From a virus, in the IMG/VR virus record IMGVR_UViG_3300025818_000178, positions 1 through 24,436 of that record: a DNA stretch of 24,436 bases; one strand, given 5' to 3'. The position numbers were made by a program, and so were the translations under genes. The notes below the pieces were generated by a model. It saw only the letters and a program-made list of their open reading frames with translations. It was not told the DNA's origin and did not search any database. Each line of letters opens with the position of its first letter. Position 1 is the stretch's first letter. This document shows positions 7,591-15,158 of this stretch, piece by piece.

Positions 7591-8031
7591 CTAAAGAGCC
7601 ATTCTTACATATGAGCACGAGTTGGTGAAGCCGAATCTGCTCATGTAGATTTTCGCCAGTCGGTGCGGTGCATACGCACTGACGTGTGTGCACCCGTTGG
7701 CCTTCAACCAGTCTAGTACGAACTGCCAGTATGCAGCCTTGAACCGCATTAGGTGCTCACCAGCCATGGTTATGATTTCCGCACCTTTGTGCCCGTTGGC
7801 CTCGGTGAATTGCAGGGCTATTACGCACCCGGGTTCGTCGTCCACAGTCCCGACGAATATAGCACACATACCGGCCACGGCCAGCGCGTACACATCTCCG
7901 GGGCATATGTCGTTATAACCTAGATCATTGCCTTCGCAGGCTGATTGGACCATAGGCTCTAGCTTGGGCCACAGCTCCATAACCTGCTCGGGTTCGAGCA
8001 TATCAAGTCTTAGCGTTGCCACCTTTGCCAT
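7591..8031 (-). CDS. GNAT-like virion-associated protein, 146 residues
   Basis: The chosen ATG at 8031 has a GAGG site four bases upstream and overlaps the end of the preceding gene by 29 bases; a second ATG at 8001 would give a shorter form lacking the first beta strand. The sequence has the rhythm of a GNAT fold: a first strand and helix (residues 5-30), a central strand pair (about 57-73), and a late segment (HRLAKIYMSRFGF) typical of the final GNAT helix and strand. I do not see a convincing Q/RxxGxG/A acetyl-CoA loop, so catalytic activity is doubtful. T7 gp13, encoded just before gp14, also looks GNAT-like, and this gene has the same place just before the hydrophobic ejection protein. 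A structural or assembly role is therefore more likely than acetylation. Confidence 0.85.
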   Translation of the reverse strand: MAKVATLRLDMLEPEQVMELWPKLEPMVQSACEGNDLGYNDICPGDVYALAVAGMCAIFVGTVDDEPGCVIALQFTEANGHKGAEIITMAGEHLMRFKAAYWQFVLDWLKANGCTHVSAYAPHRLAKIYMSRFGFTNSCSYVRMAL

Positions 8032-11501: not shown

Positions 11502-11861
11502 TTACTCTCCGGTCAGCCTAGCAGGGCGGTCATCGTTCAGTGACCCTGCGGCTTGCGCGTCAAGGATTATGGCCATGCACGCCATGACGTGCGCTTGGTG
11601 CGGCTCACCACTCTCGGGGTCGCTGTCTTCCCCCTCCCACATAGCCATCAAATGCCGCATGGCAGCATCGTAGTAGACGGACATCGTGACCCGGTCGTCG
11701 CGCCAGTTATACGGGCCGTACTTGTCCGCACCACCACGCATCACCCGGCCCAGAGGTCTCAGAGCAGTCGTGGGCACCAGATGCATCGGGTCCTTCCTGA
11801 CACCGAAAGCAGTCTTGGGGTTCCCATCGGGCAGCCGCCCACCGTGCCCTACCTGCTCCAT
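11502..11861 (-). CDS. dATP/dGTP diphosphohydrolase-like protein (DUF5664 type), 119 residues
   Basis: ATG at 11861 follows GGAGG by six bases and the gene ends just before the 808-residue tail gene. The sequence carries the hallmarks of the family known as DUF5664 or dATP/dGTP diphosphohydrolase N-terminal: GADKYGPYNWR (residues 44-54), an AAMRHL helix (66-71), EGEDSDPESGEPH (76-88) and a second His at 91 followed by a helix. These acidic and His residues would bind metal and nucleotide. Enzymes of this family remove pyrophosphate from dATP or dGTP; MazZ of 2-aminoadenine phages is related. It has no visible link to tail assembly and may alter the dNTP pool of the infected cell. The family call is strong; the exact substrate is unknown. 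Confidence 0.9.
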   Translation of the reverse strand: MEQVGHGGRLPDGNPKTAFGVRKDPMHLVPTTALRPLGRVMRGGADKYGPYNWRDDRVTMSVYYDAAMRHLMAMWEGEDSDPESGEPHQAHVMACMAIILDAQAAGSLNDDRPARLTGE

Positions 11862-11864
11862 GTG

Positions 11865-12299
11865 TTACCTCCGCATTATCTTGTCGCGCATCCCCTGCAT
11901 GGTCCGCTTGTCCATGGTGCGCGCCACACCATACCCTAGATAACCAGCGCCGAACAGGGCCCAAAGCGCATCGGGTATAGCCATGAGCATGGACTGGATG
12001 CCGATCGCCGCCGACTGTACGTGGTCGGGCCACCAGACGCTCAGGATGCCGCCGACGAAGCACAGGATGATGACGGCATACATCACATACAGGAAGGTCG
12101 GGCGGGCACGGCTGGTCCACGGGTCGCTGCTCTGGGCTTCTGCCATGATAGCGCCCATGGAGATCTTGGCCTCTTCCAGTCGCCCGGTCTGCTCCGCCTG
12201 CATGATCTTGACGCGGGCAGCAGCCTTTTCCTCATCGGTCTCGAAGAGGTTGTCGATGACCGTGTCAGCCAGTTTGGCCAAAGGGGACAGGAAGTCCAT
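11865..12299 (-). CDS. 3-TM-type holin, 144 residues
   Basis: I chose ATG 12299, two bases past the stop of the peptidase gene; a longer in-frame extension to 12452 runs inside the peptidase gene and reads as a shadow. Residues 1-55 form a charged amphipathic region. SDPWTSRARP (58-67) is the hallmark before the membrane region of the Holin_3TMs family, followed by hydrophobic segments at about 68-90 and 94-126 (the latter may hold two passes). The C-terminus is basic (KRTMQGMRDKIMRR). Holins of this type open the inner membrane so that a signal-less endolysin can reach peptidoglycan. The adjacent M15 peptidase is the obvious partner. Confidence 0.92.
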   Translation of the reverse strand: MDFLSPLAKLADTVIDNLFETDEEKAAARVKIMQAEQTGRLEEAKISMGAIMAEAQSSDPWTSRARPTFLYVMYAVIILCFVGGILSVWWPDHVQSAAIGIQSMLMAIPDALWALFGAGYLGYGVARTMDKRTMQGMRDKIMRR

Positions 12300-12300
12300 G

Positions 12301-12675
12301 TCAGTAATCCCAGATTGTGGGGCGGGGTATCCCGCTGCCGAACAACGTGTCCAGATGGATGAACCGCTTGCTGCCCTTCTGGTTGATACCGATTCCGGTG
12401 AACTTGCCATCCAGTGCGTTGAGCAGGGCCCACGCCTTTTCGCCCTGTACACCTATGTCAGCCGCCTTGCCAGAAGCGTGCGTCTGGGTAAACCCCCGGG
12501 CGGTGTTGTACTCTTCGCAGCGATAGCCGCTCGTGATCGGGAAGGGGAAGTCGAGATTTGTGCGCAGGTGCTGGAGCCTGAACATGAAATGGTCGTCCAT
12601 GTCGGCCCGGCCACATCCGCATCTGCACTCGAACTCGGCGCGGGAGAAATTGGGGTAGGCAGCCCAGTCGGTCAT
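12301..12675 (-). CDS. Endolysin: M15-family D,D-carboxy/endopeptidase-like, 124 residues
   Basis: The start ATG 12675 overlaps the stop of the 4-TM gene (ATGA). Longer upstream in-frame readings lie inside that gene and are not credible. Key motifs match the M15A/VanY-like fold: SGYRCEEYN (49-57), HASGKAAD with zinc ligands His66 and Asp73, and FIHLD with His107. An N-terminal cysteine-rich segment (CRCGCG, 17-22) is common in this phage subgroup. The enzyme would cut peptide bonds in peptidoglycan stems. There is no signal peptide, so export depends on the holin encoded next. Confidence in function is high. Confidence 0.94.
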   Translation of the reverse strand: MTDWAAYPNFSRAEFECRCGCGRADMDDHFMFRLQHLRTNLDFPFPITSGYRCEEYNTARGFTQTHASGKAADIGVQGEKAWALLNALDGKFTGIGINQKGSKRFIHLDTLFGSGIPRPTIWDY

Positions 12676-13121
12676 AGCGTCAGCCCCGCCAGTGCGCCGA
12701 GCACATACAGGGCGACAACCGTCCCGATCATTATCGGCCAGTAAAAGGTTGGCTCCAGCGTGCCGATCACCCGGCGCGTCATCAGCCTCGCATACGGCTC
12801 GATGTGGATCATGTAGCCCGCGACAATTCCGGCAACCGCGAAGATCAGCCAGTCGGCCCAGCTCACGAAACGTTCCGCGATACCCGGCTCGTCGATGGAC
12901 AGGAACAGCCGCCATAGAAACCAGAAGCCCCTATGAATGGCGAGGGAACCCGACACCAGCATGATGCCGAAAGCCATGCGCCCTGCCCGGTCGCCCGGTG
13001 GCGCGTTCAGCCAGAACCGGCCATAGATAACGCAGACCAGCAAGCCGCCGATCAGGGTGACGAAGTTCTGCCCCATGACGGCCGCGTGACCAGTGAAAAG
13101 GTGTGCTAGTAAATCAATCAT
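12672..13121 (-). CDS. Four-TM membrane protein, possible holin or accessory lysis protein, 149 residues
   Basis: I prefer ATG 13121, which overlaps the preceding stop by eight bases as ATGATTGA; an upstream ATG at 13145 would add eight polar residues. Hydrophobic segments occur at about 18-37, 48-70, 88-108 and 127-147, separated by short charged loops. It lies directly before the endolysin and one gene before the 3-TM holin. Two membrane proteins flanking an endolysin suggests a holin plus antiholin or pinholin arrangement, but I do not recognise the family. The call as a membrane protein is firm; the lysis role is contextual. Confidence 0.85.
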   Translation of the reverse strand: MIDLLAHLFTGHAAVMGQNFVTLIGGLLVCVIYGRFWLNAPPGDRAGRMAFGIMLVSGSLAIHRGFWFLWRLFLSIDEPGIAERFVSWADWLIFAVAGIVAGYMIHIEPYARLMTRRVIGTLEPTFYWPIMIGTVVALYVLGALAGLTL

Positions 13122-13299
13122 CTCTGCGCCGCCCCAGTTTTCCAAGTGTCTTGCGGATTTCCTCGTCGGCCTTCGTGAACCGCTCCAGTTCCTTCCGCAT
13201 GGCCCGGCTTTCCTCGGCGCTTTCCTCGGTATGACCCACGCACTCGTCCAGCAGGCTCAGAGTCCGCTTGTATTTCCGATTGCCGCCAAGCCAGTTCAT
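13114..13299 (-). CDS. Small charged coiled-coil protein, 61 residues
   Basis: ATG at 13299 overlaps the previous stop (ATGA) and the gene ends eight bases into the 4-TM gene. The sequence is highly charged with heptad-like spacing (ERFTKADEEIRKTLGKLGRR), a single Cys, and no membrane segment. It is probably a short helical cytoplasmic protein. Its tight overlap on both sides with membrane-protein genes suggests it works with them, perhaps as a regulator of holin timing. I do not recognise the family. Confidence 0.75.
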   Translation of the reverse strand: MNWLGGNRKYKRTLSLLDECVGHTEESAEESRAMRKELERFTKADEEIRKTLGKLGRRRDD

Positions 13300-13541
13300 G
13301 CCCCCTGCCCCCGCGCGACTTGCTGCAGCATCAGGTCCGTCCGTTCTTTGAAGGTTTCCCGCATCGCGCGGAGGGTCGCCGTGTTCTCCGAAGTCGTCTG
13401 GGTCTGGGCCAGTGCCATTTCATAGAGCCGGTCTGTCAGCTTCTCGACGCGGCGGTTGCGGTCCCATGCGAAGGCCAGCGCTGCCGCCGTCACCAGCCCC
13501 GGCAGACCGTACTCGGCCAAGAACGGAATCAGTTCAATCAT
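13296..13541 (-). CDS. Single-TM plus coiled-coil protein in the lysis cassette, 81 residues
   Basis: ATG at 13541 overlaps the BTLCP stop by eight bases (ATGATTGA); an upstream in-frame ATG at 13646 would place 35 implausible residues within that gene. Residues about 6-26 (PFLAEYGLPGLVTAAALAFAW) are one membrane span, followed by DRNRR and a helical coil rich in Glu, Gln and Thr. The positive charges after the span favour a cytoplasmic C-terminus. This is unlike an i-spanin, whose coil must be periplasmic. A small holin or holin accessory is possible. The family is not recognised. Confidence 0.82.
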   Translation of the reverse strand: MIELIPFLAEYGLPGLVTAAALAFAWDRNRRVEKLTDRLYEMALAQTQTTSENTATLRAMRETFKERTDLMLQQVARGQGA

Positions 13542-13929
13542 TCCAGAGCCTCCAGACGCCCGGCTGATCCAGCCGCATGAAGCGGTCGAAGCGGTATCCG
13601 GTGTTATTGATTTGGCGCGGGCCATCCTCTTGGTAGGCGTCACCACAGGTCATCAGGCCCAGCTCATCGACCATCACCAGACAGACAGCGTGGTCGTAGC
13701 CGTCCGAGCCCTGCGTGTGGCAGAGCACGAAGCCAATATCCTCCCGGTCGACCCCGGCGCTCAAAAGCCCGTCCATGGCCCTGTCGGCCCACTCCTCACA
13801 GTCACCGACCGCCTTGCCGTCCTGCCACGTCACAGCGCCCCACACGTCCCGCCCGTCAGGGTCCGGAGCGTAGATCGCACCGTCCCATACCGAACGATGG
13901 ACACGCTGGACGATGGCCACGTCAGTCAT
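13534..13929 (-). CDS. Bacterial transglutaminase-like cysteine protease (BTLCP / LapG-like), 131 residues
   Basis: ATG 13929 overlaps the end of a tiny lipoprotein gene. The protein has GDCEEWADRAMDGLL with Cys44 at the start of the catalytic helix, YDHAVCLVMV with His80, and CGDAY with Asp97. This Cys-His-Asp order and spacing (36 and 17 residues) is what I expect for the transglutaminase-like BTLCP family that includes LapG, the periplasmic protease that releases LapA-type biofilm adhesins. Unlike cellular LapG, no signal peptide is seen and the N-terminal part is short. Encoded inside a lysis cassette, it could cut an envelope or adhesin target after holin opening, or process a phage protein. 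Family call is strong; substrate is unknown. Confidence 0.9.
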   Translation of the reverse strand: MTDVAIVQRVHRSVWDGAIYAPDPDGRDVWGAVTWQDGKAVGDCEEWADRAMDGLLSAGVDREDIGFVLCHTQGSDGYDHAVCLVMVDELGLMTCGDAYQEDGPRQINNTGYRFDRFMRLDQPGVWRLWND

Positions 13930-14087
13930 CCCGGCCTCGGGTTGCTGCAGTGGTCAGGGTGCCAGCGAGCCGGGTCAGCGCAGCGCGCCAGCGCCGCAGC
14001 AGGCGGCACGATGACCGGGCCTGATGGCCATTCCGTAACCGGGCCATGACACGCCGCCAAGACCAGCAGGAGCGGAAGCAGGCGCAT
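13926..14087 (-). CDS. Tiny lipoprotein with lipobox, 53 residues (o-spanin-like candidate)
   Basis: This gene is short and easy to miss. ATG 14087 overlaps the stop of the 67-residue gene (TGATG) and its own TGA overlaps the ATG of the protease gene (ATGA), which argues for real coupled translation. The first residues MRLLPLLLVLAAC are a lipoprotein signal with a lipobox (VLAAC) and a lipidated Cys13. The mature part is about 40 residues, rich in Pro, Ala and Trp with two further Cys. Small Pro-rich outer-membrane lipoproteins in phage lysis cassettes are often o-spanins (Rz1). No matching periplasmic i-spanin is obvious, so that function is a proposal. Confidence 0.83.
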   Translation of the reverse strand: MRLLPLLLVLAACHGPVTEWPSGPVIVPPAAALARCADPARWHPDHCSNPRPG

Positions 14088-14290
14088 CACGTGCCGTGGC
14101 GGGATGCGTAGCTTTCGGCGGCGCGCGACATCACAAACTGCACGTATGCCGCGTCGGTCGCCTGATAGTCCGCGTGGTCTTCAACGCTCTGCCCTGCGGA
14201 CAGGACCAGTGACGCGTTATGCGCCGTGCGGTCGGCGGTGATTCCCGCGAGTGCGGATGCGTCGGTGATGGTGACGGTGAACTGTGTCAT
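14087..14290 (-). CDS. Small conserved-type phage protein, 67 residues
   Basis: ATG 14290 has CAGGAG nine bases upstream, and the stop overlaps the lipoprotein start. The sequence starts MTQFTVTITDASALAGI, a strand-then-turn pattern, then contains ADYQATDAAYVQFVMSRAAESYA, a helix. This resembles short phage proteins often found between fibre and lysis genes, whose function is unknown to me. No membrane segment or catalytic residues are visible. Confidence 0.75.
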   Translation of the reverse strand: MTQFTVTITDASALAGITADRTAHNASLVLSAGQSVEDHADYQATDAAYVQFVMSRAAESYASRHGT

Positions 14291-14295
14291 GGGTG

Positions 14296-14478
14296 TTACT
14301 CCTGTTCCTGCGCCGCAACCAGCGCGTCGGTGATTTCCTTGACGGACTGGAGACGGCGGACCGCCTCCGCAATGTCCTCGACGGGGGTCTGGGACTGCGC
14401 CAGCGCGTTGCCATAGGCCCGCGTGGCGATTTCCAGATGGGACGCGAGCGCGCCCTGCTGTTCTTCGGTTAGGTCCAT
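14296..14478 (-). CDS. Small helical protein, 60 residues
   Basis: I chose ATG 14478, which overlaps the stop of the 226-residue gene (TGATG); a GTG one codon earlier is an alternative. Almost the whole sequence is helical (for example EDIAEAVRRLQSVKEITDAL), with Ala, Gln and Glu dominating. It may be a fibre-attached chaperone or small virion protein. It is part of the same polycistronic unit and lies five bases from the 67-residue gene. The family is not recognised. Confidence 0.75.
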   Translation of the reverse strand: MDLTEEQQGALASHLEIATRAYGNALAQSQTPVEDIAEAVRRLQSVKEITDALVAAQEQE

Positions 14479-15158
14479 CACGACACCACCGCGATCTTGC
14501 GGCTGGTCCCGCCTGCGTCCTTGATGGTGATGTATCCGGTGACAGACTCCCCTCCGAGCGTAGTGTGTGCGCCGAACTTGACGACGCCGGTCCCGGCTGG
14601 TGTCAAGGCGAGGTCGATATTGGCCGCCCCCGTTCCCGCGCTCTCCACCGTGATGGCGTCACGGGTGATGGCAAGACGCTCGTAGTTGCTGGAATTCGTG
14701 TAGGTGCCGTAGACGCGATACGTCTGTGCCGTGGTCGAGTTGCGCAGGGCAAGGGTGGCCGCAGCATCCCGATACAAGAACACATCCCCGCCCCCGTTGA
14801 CGTTCGCATTGCCCCACTGAAGCGGGAGCGTACTTTTCAGCATCATGCCTTGATTAAACTTGAATGATGCGACTCCGGTGCCGTTGGACACCATCGAGAC
14901 AAGCGTATTGTTCACCAAGGACATGCCGGTTTCAAAACCCGCAGCCTTGAATGAAGGGGCCGAGAACGAGGCGGACTGAGGAACCTCCACGTCACCGCGC
15001 TTGTTGACGTTGAACATGGAAGAACCGCCGACCTGAAGGTCAAGCAGGAGTGATGCCGCGTTGGACGCCGTGTCCGTCACGTCGAGGCCGATGGCGGTGA
15101 ACGTGGTTCCTGCGTCGTTCCACGTCTTGGCCATGGCCGAGATATTGACTGTTGCCAT
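14478..15158 (-). CDS. Fibre-like structural protein, 226 residues
   Basis: ATG at 15158 is preceded by AAGGGG overlapping the previous stop. The protein is Ser/Thr/Gly/Ala/Asn-rich with many short predicted strands and no membrane segment. It contains LALTPAGTGVVKFGAHTTL near the C-terminus, a pattern typical of phage tail fibre or head-fibre shafts (repeated T-P-x-G-T-G-V-V units). The final TSRKIAVVS ending is also common in such proteins. A receptor-binding or fibre shaft role is likely. It lies with other fibre modules upstream of the lysis cassette. Confidence 0.85.
   Translation of the reverse strand: MATVNISAMAKTWNDAGTTFTAIGLDVTDTASNAASLLLDLQVGGSSMFNVNKRGDVEVPQSASFSAPSFKAAGFETGMSLVNNTLVSMVSNGTGVASFKFNQGMMLKSTLPLQWGNANVNGGGDVFLYRDAAATLALRNSTTAQTYRVYGTYTNSSNYERLAITRDAITVESAGTGAANIDLALTPAGTGVVKFGAHTTLGGESVTGYITIKDAGGTSRKIAVVS

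Follow-up and report, generated by a model that had tools for sequence, protein, structure and literature searches.

Many signal-less viral BTLCPs adjoin tiny cysteine-pair lipoproteins: a candidate two-gene protease in a phage lysis cassette

Introduction

What does a LapG-like protease without a signal peptide do among the lysis genes of a phage? The question is raised by a 131-residue BTLCP (Peptidase_C93) encoded in the window, the whole 24,436-nucleotide stretch of IMG/VR virus record IMGVR_UViG_3300025818_000178 that was analysed here. In single-virus genomes from rivers, BTLCPs are reported to be the commonest AMG, with no mechanism given (PMC11283719). A viral LapG relative is thus not new by itself, because phage BTLCPs have already been reported as common. 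What is new is that many signal-less viral BTLCPs are paired with an adjoining tiny lipoprotein that carries a cysteine pair; no report of a split BTLCP with a lipoprotein partner was found in the open-licence papers searched.

Results

The BTLCP gene lies on the minus strand, which the original prediction left unstated, from an ATG at 13929 to a stop at 13534, and its translation reads MTDVAIVQRV...GDCEEWAD...YDHAVCL...CGDAYQ... Only 8 in-frame codons separate the ATG from the preceding stop, which excludes a signal peptide and bears out the original prediction on this point. Viral relatives share 64-82% identity with the window protein, one further contig is 100% identical, and D43-C44-E45, H80 and D97 are kept in every viral relative found. 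The dN/dS ratios from 21 pairwise comparisons (0.12-0.29) indicate a real gene under purifying selection. No match to the window protein was obtained in annotated phages by tblastn, or in a scan of genome contigs with query A2. A search of 385 alphaproteobacterial genomes gave one match, a cellular BTLCP, and identified no provirus or host.

Assignment to the LapG-like BTLCPs, as originally predicted, was examined by sequence and by structure. The Pfam model PF06035 scored the window protein at 23.4 bits (E 5.7e-5), short of its gathering cut-off of 27 bits, but the L007 ortholog passes this cut-off at 29.5 bits. Profile-profile comparison (hhalign) of the window family with cellular BTLCPs gave 98.1% probability (E 7.7e-14) over 122 columns. 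A profile of 30 alphaproteobacterial BTLCPs matched the window protein at 3.2e-12 (hmmsearch), most of the cellular PF06035 set having been collected by searching 58 alphaproteobacterial genomes. In alignments to cellular BTLCPs, C44, H80 and D97 fall on the catalytic triad in the family's context and spacing, just as had been proposed, with D97 opposite the Asp of the family's LDN motif in the profile-profile alignment. W30, D43, C44, E45, A48 and H80 are invariant in an alignment of 35 divergent BTLCPs.

When the 35-member profile was compared with PDB sequences, LapG was matched at 2.2e-25 and 3.7e-19; a narrow profile gave chance matches only. An AF2 model built from 8 close relatives was discarded (pLDDT 44), and the 35-member alignment yielded a model with pLDDT 92 and pTM 0.87. 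Foldseek ranked LapG first for this model (E 2.1e-3, probability 1.00), and VIA-align superposed it on LapG (4FGO) with Z 13.8 over 121 residues at 2.8 A, the next unrelated fold reaching Z 8.2. The papain-like fold that was looked for is therefore present and of the LapG type; because the alignment behind the model contained BTLCPs, the structural evidence depends in part on the sequence evidence. In DvhG and LapG, the D and E residues flanking the catalytic Cys are required for Ca-dependent activity (DvhG D316/E318; PMC13090378), and both acidic residues are present in the window protein (D43/E45). Taken together, the window protein is a BTLCP with the LapG fold and with the triad and the predicted calcium motif intact.

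The LapG proteins of P. fluorescens and L. pneumophila (PDB 4U65, 4FGO-4FGQ) share with the window protein a papain/transglutaminase-like fold, the C-H-D triad and the D-C-E calcium motif. In contrast to them, the window protein is encoded by a virus within a lysis cassette, lacks a signal peptide, N-terminal extension and LapD, and shows just 14-16% identity. Its profile-profile match is to the alphaproteobacterial BTLCPs, which include HvyA (PF06035 / MEROPS C93). Cellular alphaproteobacterial BTLCPs are exported, and many carry the segment PPxGxxxFCxxxPxxC in cis; this segment is absent from the window chain, which begins 43 residues before Cys44. The Cys-pair segment defines an alphaproteobacterial subtype rather than the family, because some cellular PF06035 members are without it.

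With LapG as the closest solved fold, and with triad and calcium motif retained, the protein could be a LapG timed to lysis: by cutting an adhesin of the LapA type it would let progeny and debris detach, and the neighbouring lipoprotein would be incidental. Phage BTLCPs have also been tied in print to surface structures and biofilm (PMC11283719). We consider this account unlikely: substrate and host adhesin are only putative, identity to LapG is low, and other BTLCPs have other targets, such as HvyA, which acts on capsulation (PMC4241560). Moreover, viral BTLCPs without a signal peptide are widespread, and the genes of many viral BTLCPs are not part of a lysis cassette, so that a lysis-specific LapA role does not generalise.

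The genomic setting of the gene is given by the following features of the window, listed from the holin to the head of the conserved block.

11865..12302, minus strand: GTA_holin_3TM holin (PF11351, 3.4e-20; phrog_3427 holin, 9.7e-29)
12301..12702, minus strand: M15 peptidase endolysin (PF08291, 8.6e-15; phrog_894 endolysin, 3.9e-26)
12672..13145, minus strand: 157-aa multi-TM membrane protein, possible holin (hydrophobic segments by sequence; no functional family)
13114..13299, minus strand: 61-aa coiled-coil protein
13296..13550, minus strand: 84-aa protein with one N-terminal TM segment and a coiled coil, holin- or spanin-like, overlapping the 3' end of the BTLCP gene (no significant family)
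13534..13929, minus strand: BTLCP catalytic chain, 131 aa (triad C44/H80/D97, Ca motif D43-C-E45, no signal peptide)
13926..14090, minus strand: lipo54, 54-aa Pro-rich lipoprotein with lipobox LAAC and the pattern PP-x6-C-x10-C, candidate partner or split N-terminal segment (or Rz1-like o-spanin)
14087..14290, minus strand: 67-aa conserved protein upstream of lipo54, with a 4-nt overlap, in the conserved block
14478..15158, minus strand: 226-aa tail-fibre-like protein (by sequence), head of the conserved block (synteny in L003, L005, L008, L009)

The M15 endolysin, the GTA_holin_3TM protein and the Rz1-like lipoprotein, whose gene ends with a 4-nt overlap into the start of the BTLCP gene, mark this region as a phage lysis cassette. 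The original prediction had seen it as such, and had correctly noted membrane proteins and a lipoprotein flanking the BTLCP. The block runs from the 226-aa tail-fibre-like protein through proteins of 61 and 67 aa, lipo54, the BTLCP and small membrane or coiled-coil proteins to the M15 endolysin and the holin. It is conserved in the four syntenic relatives named above and in parts in L007 and L010. The capsid of the window phage resembles those of HMO-2011-type and Rhizobium RHph_TM phages. Four contigs with the same backbone and tail genes (L044-L047) gave no BTLCP or lipo54 match.

The endolysin varies among the relatives, being M15 in L003, L005 and L007-L010 and an amidase in L004 (phrog_822, 4e-58) and L006. 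The BTLCP is kept despite this change, as is lipo54 wherever the upstream sequence was covered, and all 7 contigs with lipo54 also carry the BTLCP. Because the two genes are retained together across relatives with changing endolysins, the lipo54-BTLCP pair travels as a unit.

Two other window genes were noted. Directly after the holin, positions 11502-11861 (minus strand) encode a 119-aa dATP/dGTP diphosphohydrolase N-terminal domain (PF18909, 1.5e-29), which PHROGs names "endolysin; inhibits RNA polymerase", probably a mislabel. Among the virion genes, positions 7591-8031 (minus strand) encode a 146-aa acetyltransferase-like protein (GNAT-like by eye) that is conserved in L044-L047.

The position of the BTLCP gene between the Rz1-like lipoprotein gene and the endolysin and holin genes would also suit an auxiliary lysis enzyme, a transglutaminase-like hydrolase acting beside the endolysin on peptidoglycan-linked or envelope isopeptide or peptide bonds; lipo54 would then be a usual o-spanin of the Rz1-like kind. 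A related fold is found in the phage pseudomurein endoisopeptidase PeiW, but its Z of 7.4 falls among the values that common arrangements give. In a second marine lineage, unrelated to this one, a BTLCP without a signal peptide is placed next to Rz, Rz1 and a membrane protein with an EF hand, and the lipo54 family matches the PHROG "Rz-like spanin" (phrog_456 in 6 of 6 members, best 1.5e-5). Like Rz1-type o-spanins (phrog_456; PF23793 LysC), lipo54 is a tiny Pro-rich lipoprotein in a lysis cassette. Unlike them, it is not nested with an Rz gene: the genes that it overlaps encode the 67-aa protein and the BTLCP, and no Rz or i-spanin gene is interleaved with it. In L004, L006 and L009, it coexists with Rz and Rz1 as separate genes downstream of the lipo54-BTLCP pair (by PHROGs in L004, by sequence likeness in L006 and L009), and a lipo54 profile did not match the Rz1 proteins of its own relatives. 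The view that lipo54 is simply Rz1 is weakened by the separate Rz/Rz1 genes and the missing interleaved Rz, and, with an endolysin already encoded in the cassette, we judge it improbable that the BTLCP is such an auxiliary enzyme.

The alternative that we prefer is that the lipoprotein belongs to the protease. Lipo54 stands beside the BTLCP in every relative whose upstream DNA was covered, and no other ORF on the coding strand of the window scores positive for the lipoprotein and Cys-pair features described below. No match was found in NCBIfam for the BTLCP/lipo54 pair.

To place the pair in a wider context, IMG/VR was scanned with the patterns GDCE[DE]W, GDCEDY and GDCEDF; the counts that follow cover the matches listed. 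The first set contained at least 125 confirmed BTLCP loci, at least 87 of the listed proteins being signal-less by a crude hydropathy test; some viral BTLCPs are exported or have a lipobox. In one signal-less cluster, each BTLCP abuts a lipoprotein of 48-65 aa, most of which end in a sequence like GWxxYCxxxPxDxxC. A fixed test was therefore defined from length (38-95 aa), a lipobox and a Cys pair near the C terminus. In the first set, among the matches listed, 15 test-positive ORFs were adjacent to BTLCPs, versus 1 elsewhere in 1,067 kb. The test was repeated on new loci only, because seven of these 15 cases and the window family had been seen before it was written. Among the new loci listed, an adjacent lipoprotein was present at 21 of 86 signal-less BTLCPs and at 0 of 32 exported ones (Fisher p 8e-4), with 2 test-positive ORFs elsewhere in 1,046 kb; these locus counts are not fully independent, because only identical cores were deduplicated, and a Poisson value calculated for them is not to be read at face value. 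Signal-less viral BTLCPs are, as a class, strongly associated with tiny lipoproteins.

The class lipoproteins (43-65 aa) have a C-terminal Cys pair and directly abut signal-less BTLCPs. Their tails fall into two sub-types, PPxGWxxYCxxxPxDxxC and PPxGCxELRKxGGxC. The lipoprotein gene is upstream in 24 of 30 pairs, usually overlapping, and downstream in 6 (paired loci L111, L108, L154, L181, L140, L173, L121, L130, L147, L146, L191, L038, L355, L345, L338, L379, L226, L259, L267, L316, L233, L294, L239, L230, L229, L254, L315, L288, L394 and L396). Split forms also occur in the isolated phages LucasX and PhiXhv-12; this recurrence and the 6 inverted pairs speak against a frameshift artefact as the source of the split, and that explanation was rejected.

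An HMM built from the tails of the class lipoproteins was searched against 1,923 segments of cellular loci. Its best 7 matches among these segments were all in PF06035 loci, three of them below E 0.01, and where the distance could be computed, the match lay 54-57 aa before the catalytic GDC. Judged by this likeness, the lipoprotein tails look like the segment found in cis near the N terminus of full-length BTLCPs. Phages encode fused forms as well (L159, L125, L338C, CcrColossus and Bajun). In L338C, 'TTPPFGYTLFCAKYKTNC' is followed by the catalytic domain, and the L338C and CcrColossus proteins are both fused and exported. Annotated BTLCPs of phiCbK-type phages are single chains with an N-terminal hydrophobic or lipobox segment, unlike the window pair. 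Phages thus appear to encode a split BTLCP, the simplest reading being that a single protein came apart into a segment that is exported and a catalytic chain that stays in the cytoplasm.

Is lipo54 a member of this class? The class tail HMM gave no significant match to it. Profile comparison with the class lipoproteins aligned the two in register (P 0.0085, with a probability of only 4.7%), lipo54 'GPVIVPPAAALARCAD' standing against 'GPPVMPPLGWLAYCAA' of the class, and the split-class lipoproteins also match, weakly, the Rz-like spanin PHROGs that lipo54 matches. Lipo54 probably belongs to the split-BTLCP lipoprotein class, a homology that sequence comparison did not prove. It is probably the dedicated partner of the BTLCP, and it may supply the enzyme's missing N-terminal segment, a point absent from the original prediction.

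The surroundings of the pairs are varied. A PHROG scan of 86 neighbours found mixed functions and few endolysins, ruling out that all signal-less viral BTLCPs are lysis genes, and BTLCPs outside lysis cassettes include those of phiCbK-type phages and of a Vibrio phage that has N4-like RNA polymerase genes. Other pairs have tail, DGR or nucleotide-metabolism genes nearby. This diversity, the tail-fibre-like gene within the conserved block and the missing signal peptide would fit a cytoplasmic or virion role, in which the BTLCP would act during assembly, either by maturing or crosslinking a protein of the tail or virion or by modifying one of the host, lysis adjacency reflecting late expression only. 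We find such a role very unlikely, since some viral BTLCPs are exported or anchored as lipoproteins, the motif for Ca dependence fits a periplasmic site, and the partner lipoprotein is itself exported.

Other arrangements were seen in the same scans. In L107 (5252-5584, minus strand) and L176 (638-970, plus strand), a 110-aa holin-like protein with a canonical EF-hand loop (DTNGDGHVSAEE) and hydrophobic segments adjoins the BTLCP and is followed by a lipoprotein, Rz and Rz1. In L303, L268, L279, L246, L227, L298 and L368, the BTLCP domain lies deep within long ORFs, with the catalytic Cys at residue 154-838; most of these have an FCSRNPxHPxC-like segment in cis, and they are possibly large virion or tail proteins. 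The neighbours of split pairs include a DGR reverse transcriptase and Avd (PHROG matches), for example at L181:2314-3339.

Discussion

Our preferred reading, in which confidence and doubt are about balanced, is that the window gene encodes the catalytic chain of a two-gene phage BTLCP protease that is released by the holin, activated by calcium and docked on a lipoprotein. The lipoprotein would be exported by the Sec and Lol pathways and wait at the envelope, while the catalytic chain would build up in the cytoplasm, inactive without calcium and its partner. Once the holin opened the inner membrane, the chain would reach the periplasm together with the endolysin, bind calcium there and dock on the lipoprotein. 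The docked protease might then cleave an envelope or surface protein and so help outer-membrane disruption or progeny release, a LapA-type adhesin being one candidate substrate among several. The vasohibin-SVBP complex similarly joins a transglutaminase-like cysteine protease to a small partner (Z about 6.7), but it is eukaryotic and its partner is different, so that the likeness is an analogy only.

A broader proposal is that phages have repeatedly split a periplasmic BTLCP into a Cys-pair lipoprotein and a cytoplasmic chain, giving a lysis-gated enzyme that is switched on only when the holin opens. This is possible, though we lean against it. Two points weigh against our preferred reading: by the fixed test, 65 of the 86 signal-less BTLCPs at the new loci listed are without such a lipoprotein, and the genes around split pairs are varied and for the most part have no link to lysis.

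The river viral BTLCPs are phage-encoded like the window gene, and the BTLCP passages of that study describe neither placement in a lysis cassette nor a lipoprotein partner (PMC11283719). A dedicated lipoprotein partner would indicate the envelope as the site of action. The pairing offers a handle for finding such pairs in other phages and reduces the question to two small genes. If the proposal is true, a split protease gated by calcium and by lysis would add a new component to the lysis systems of phages.
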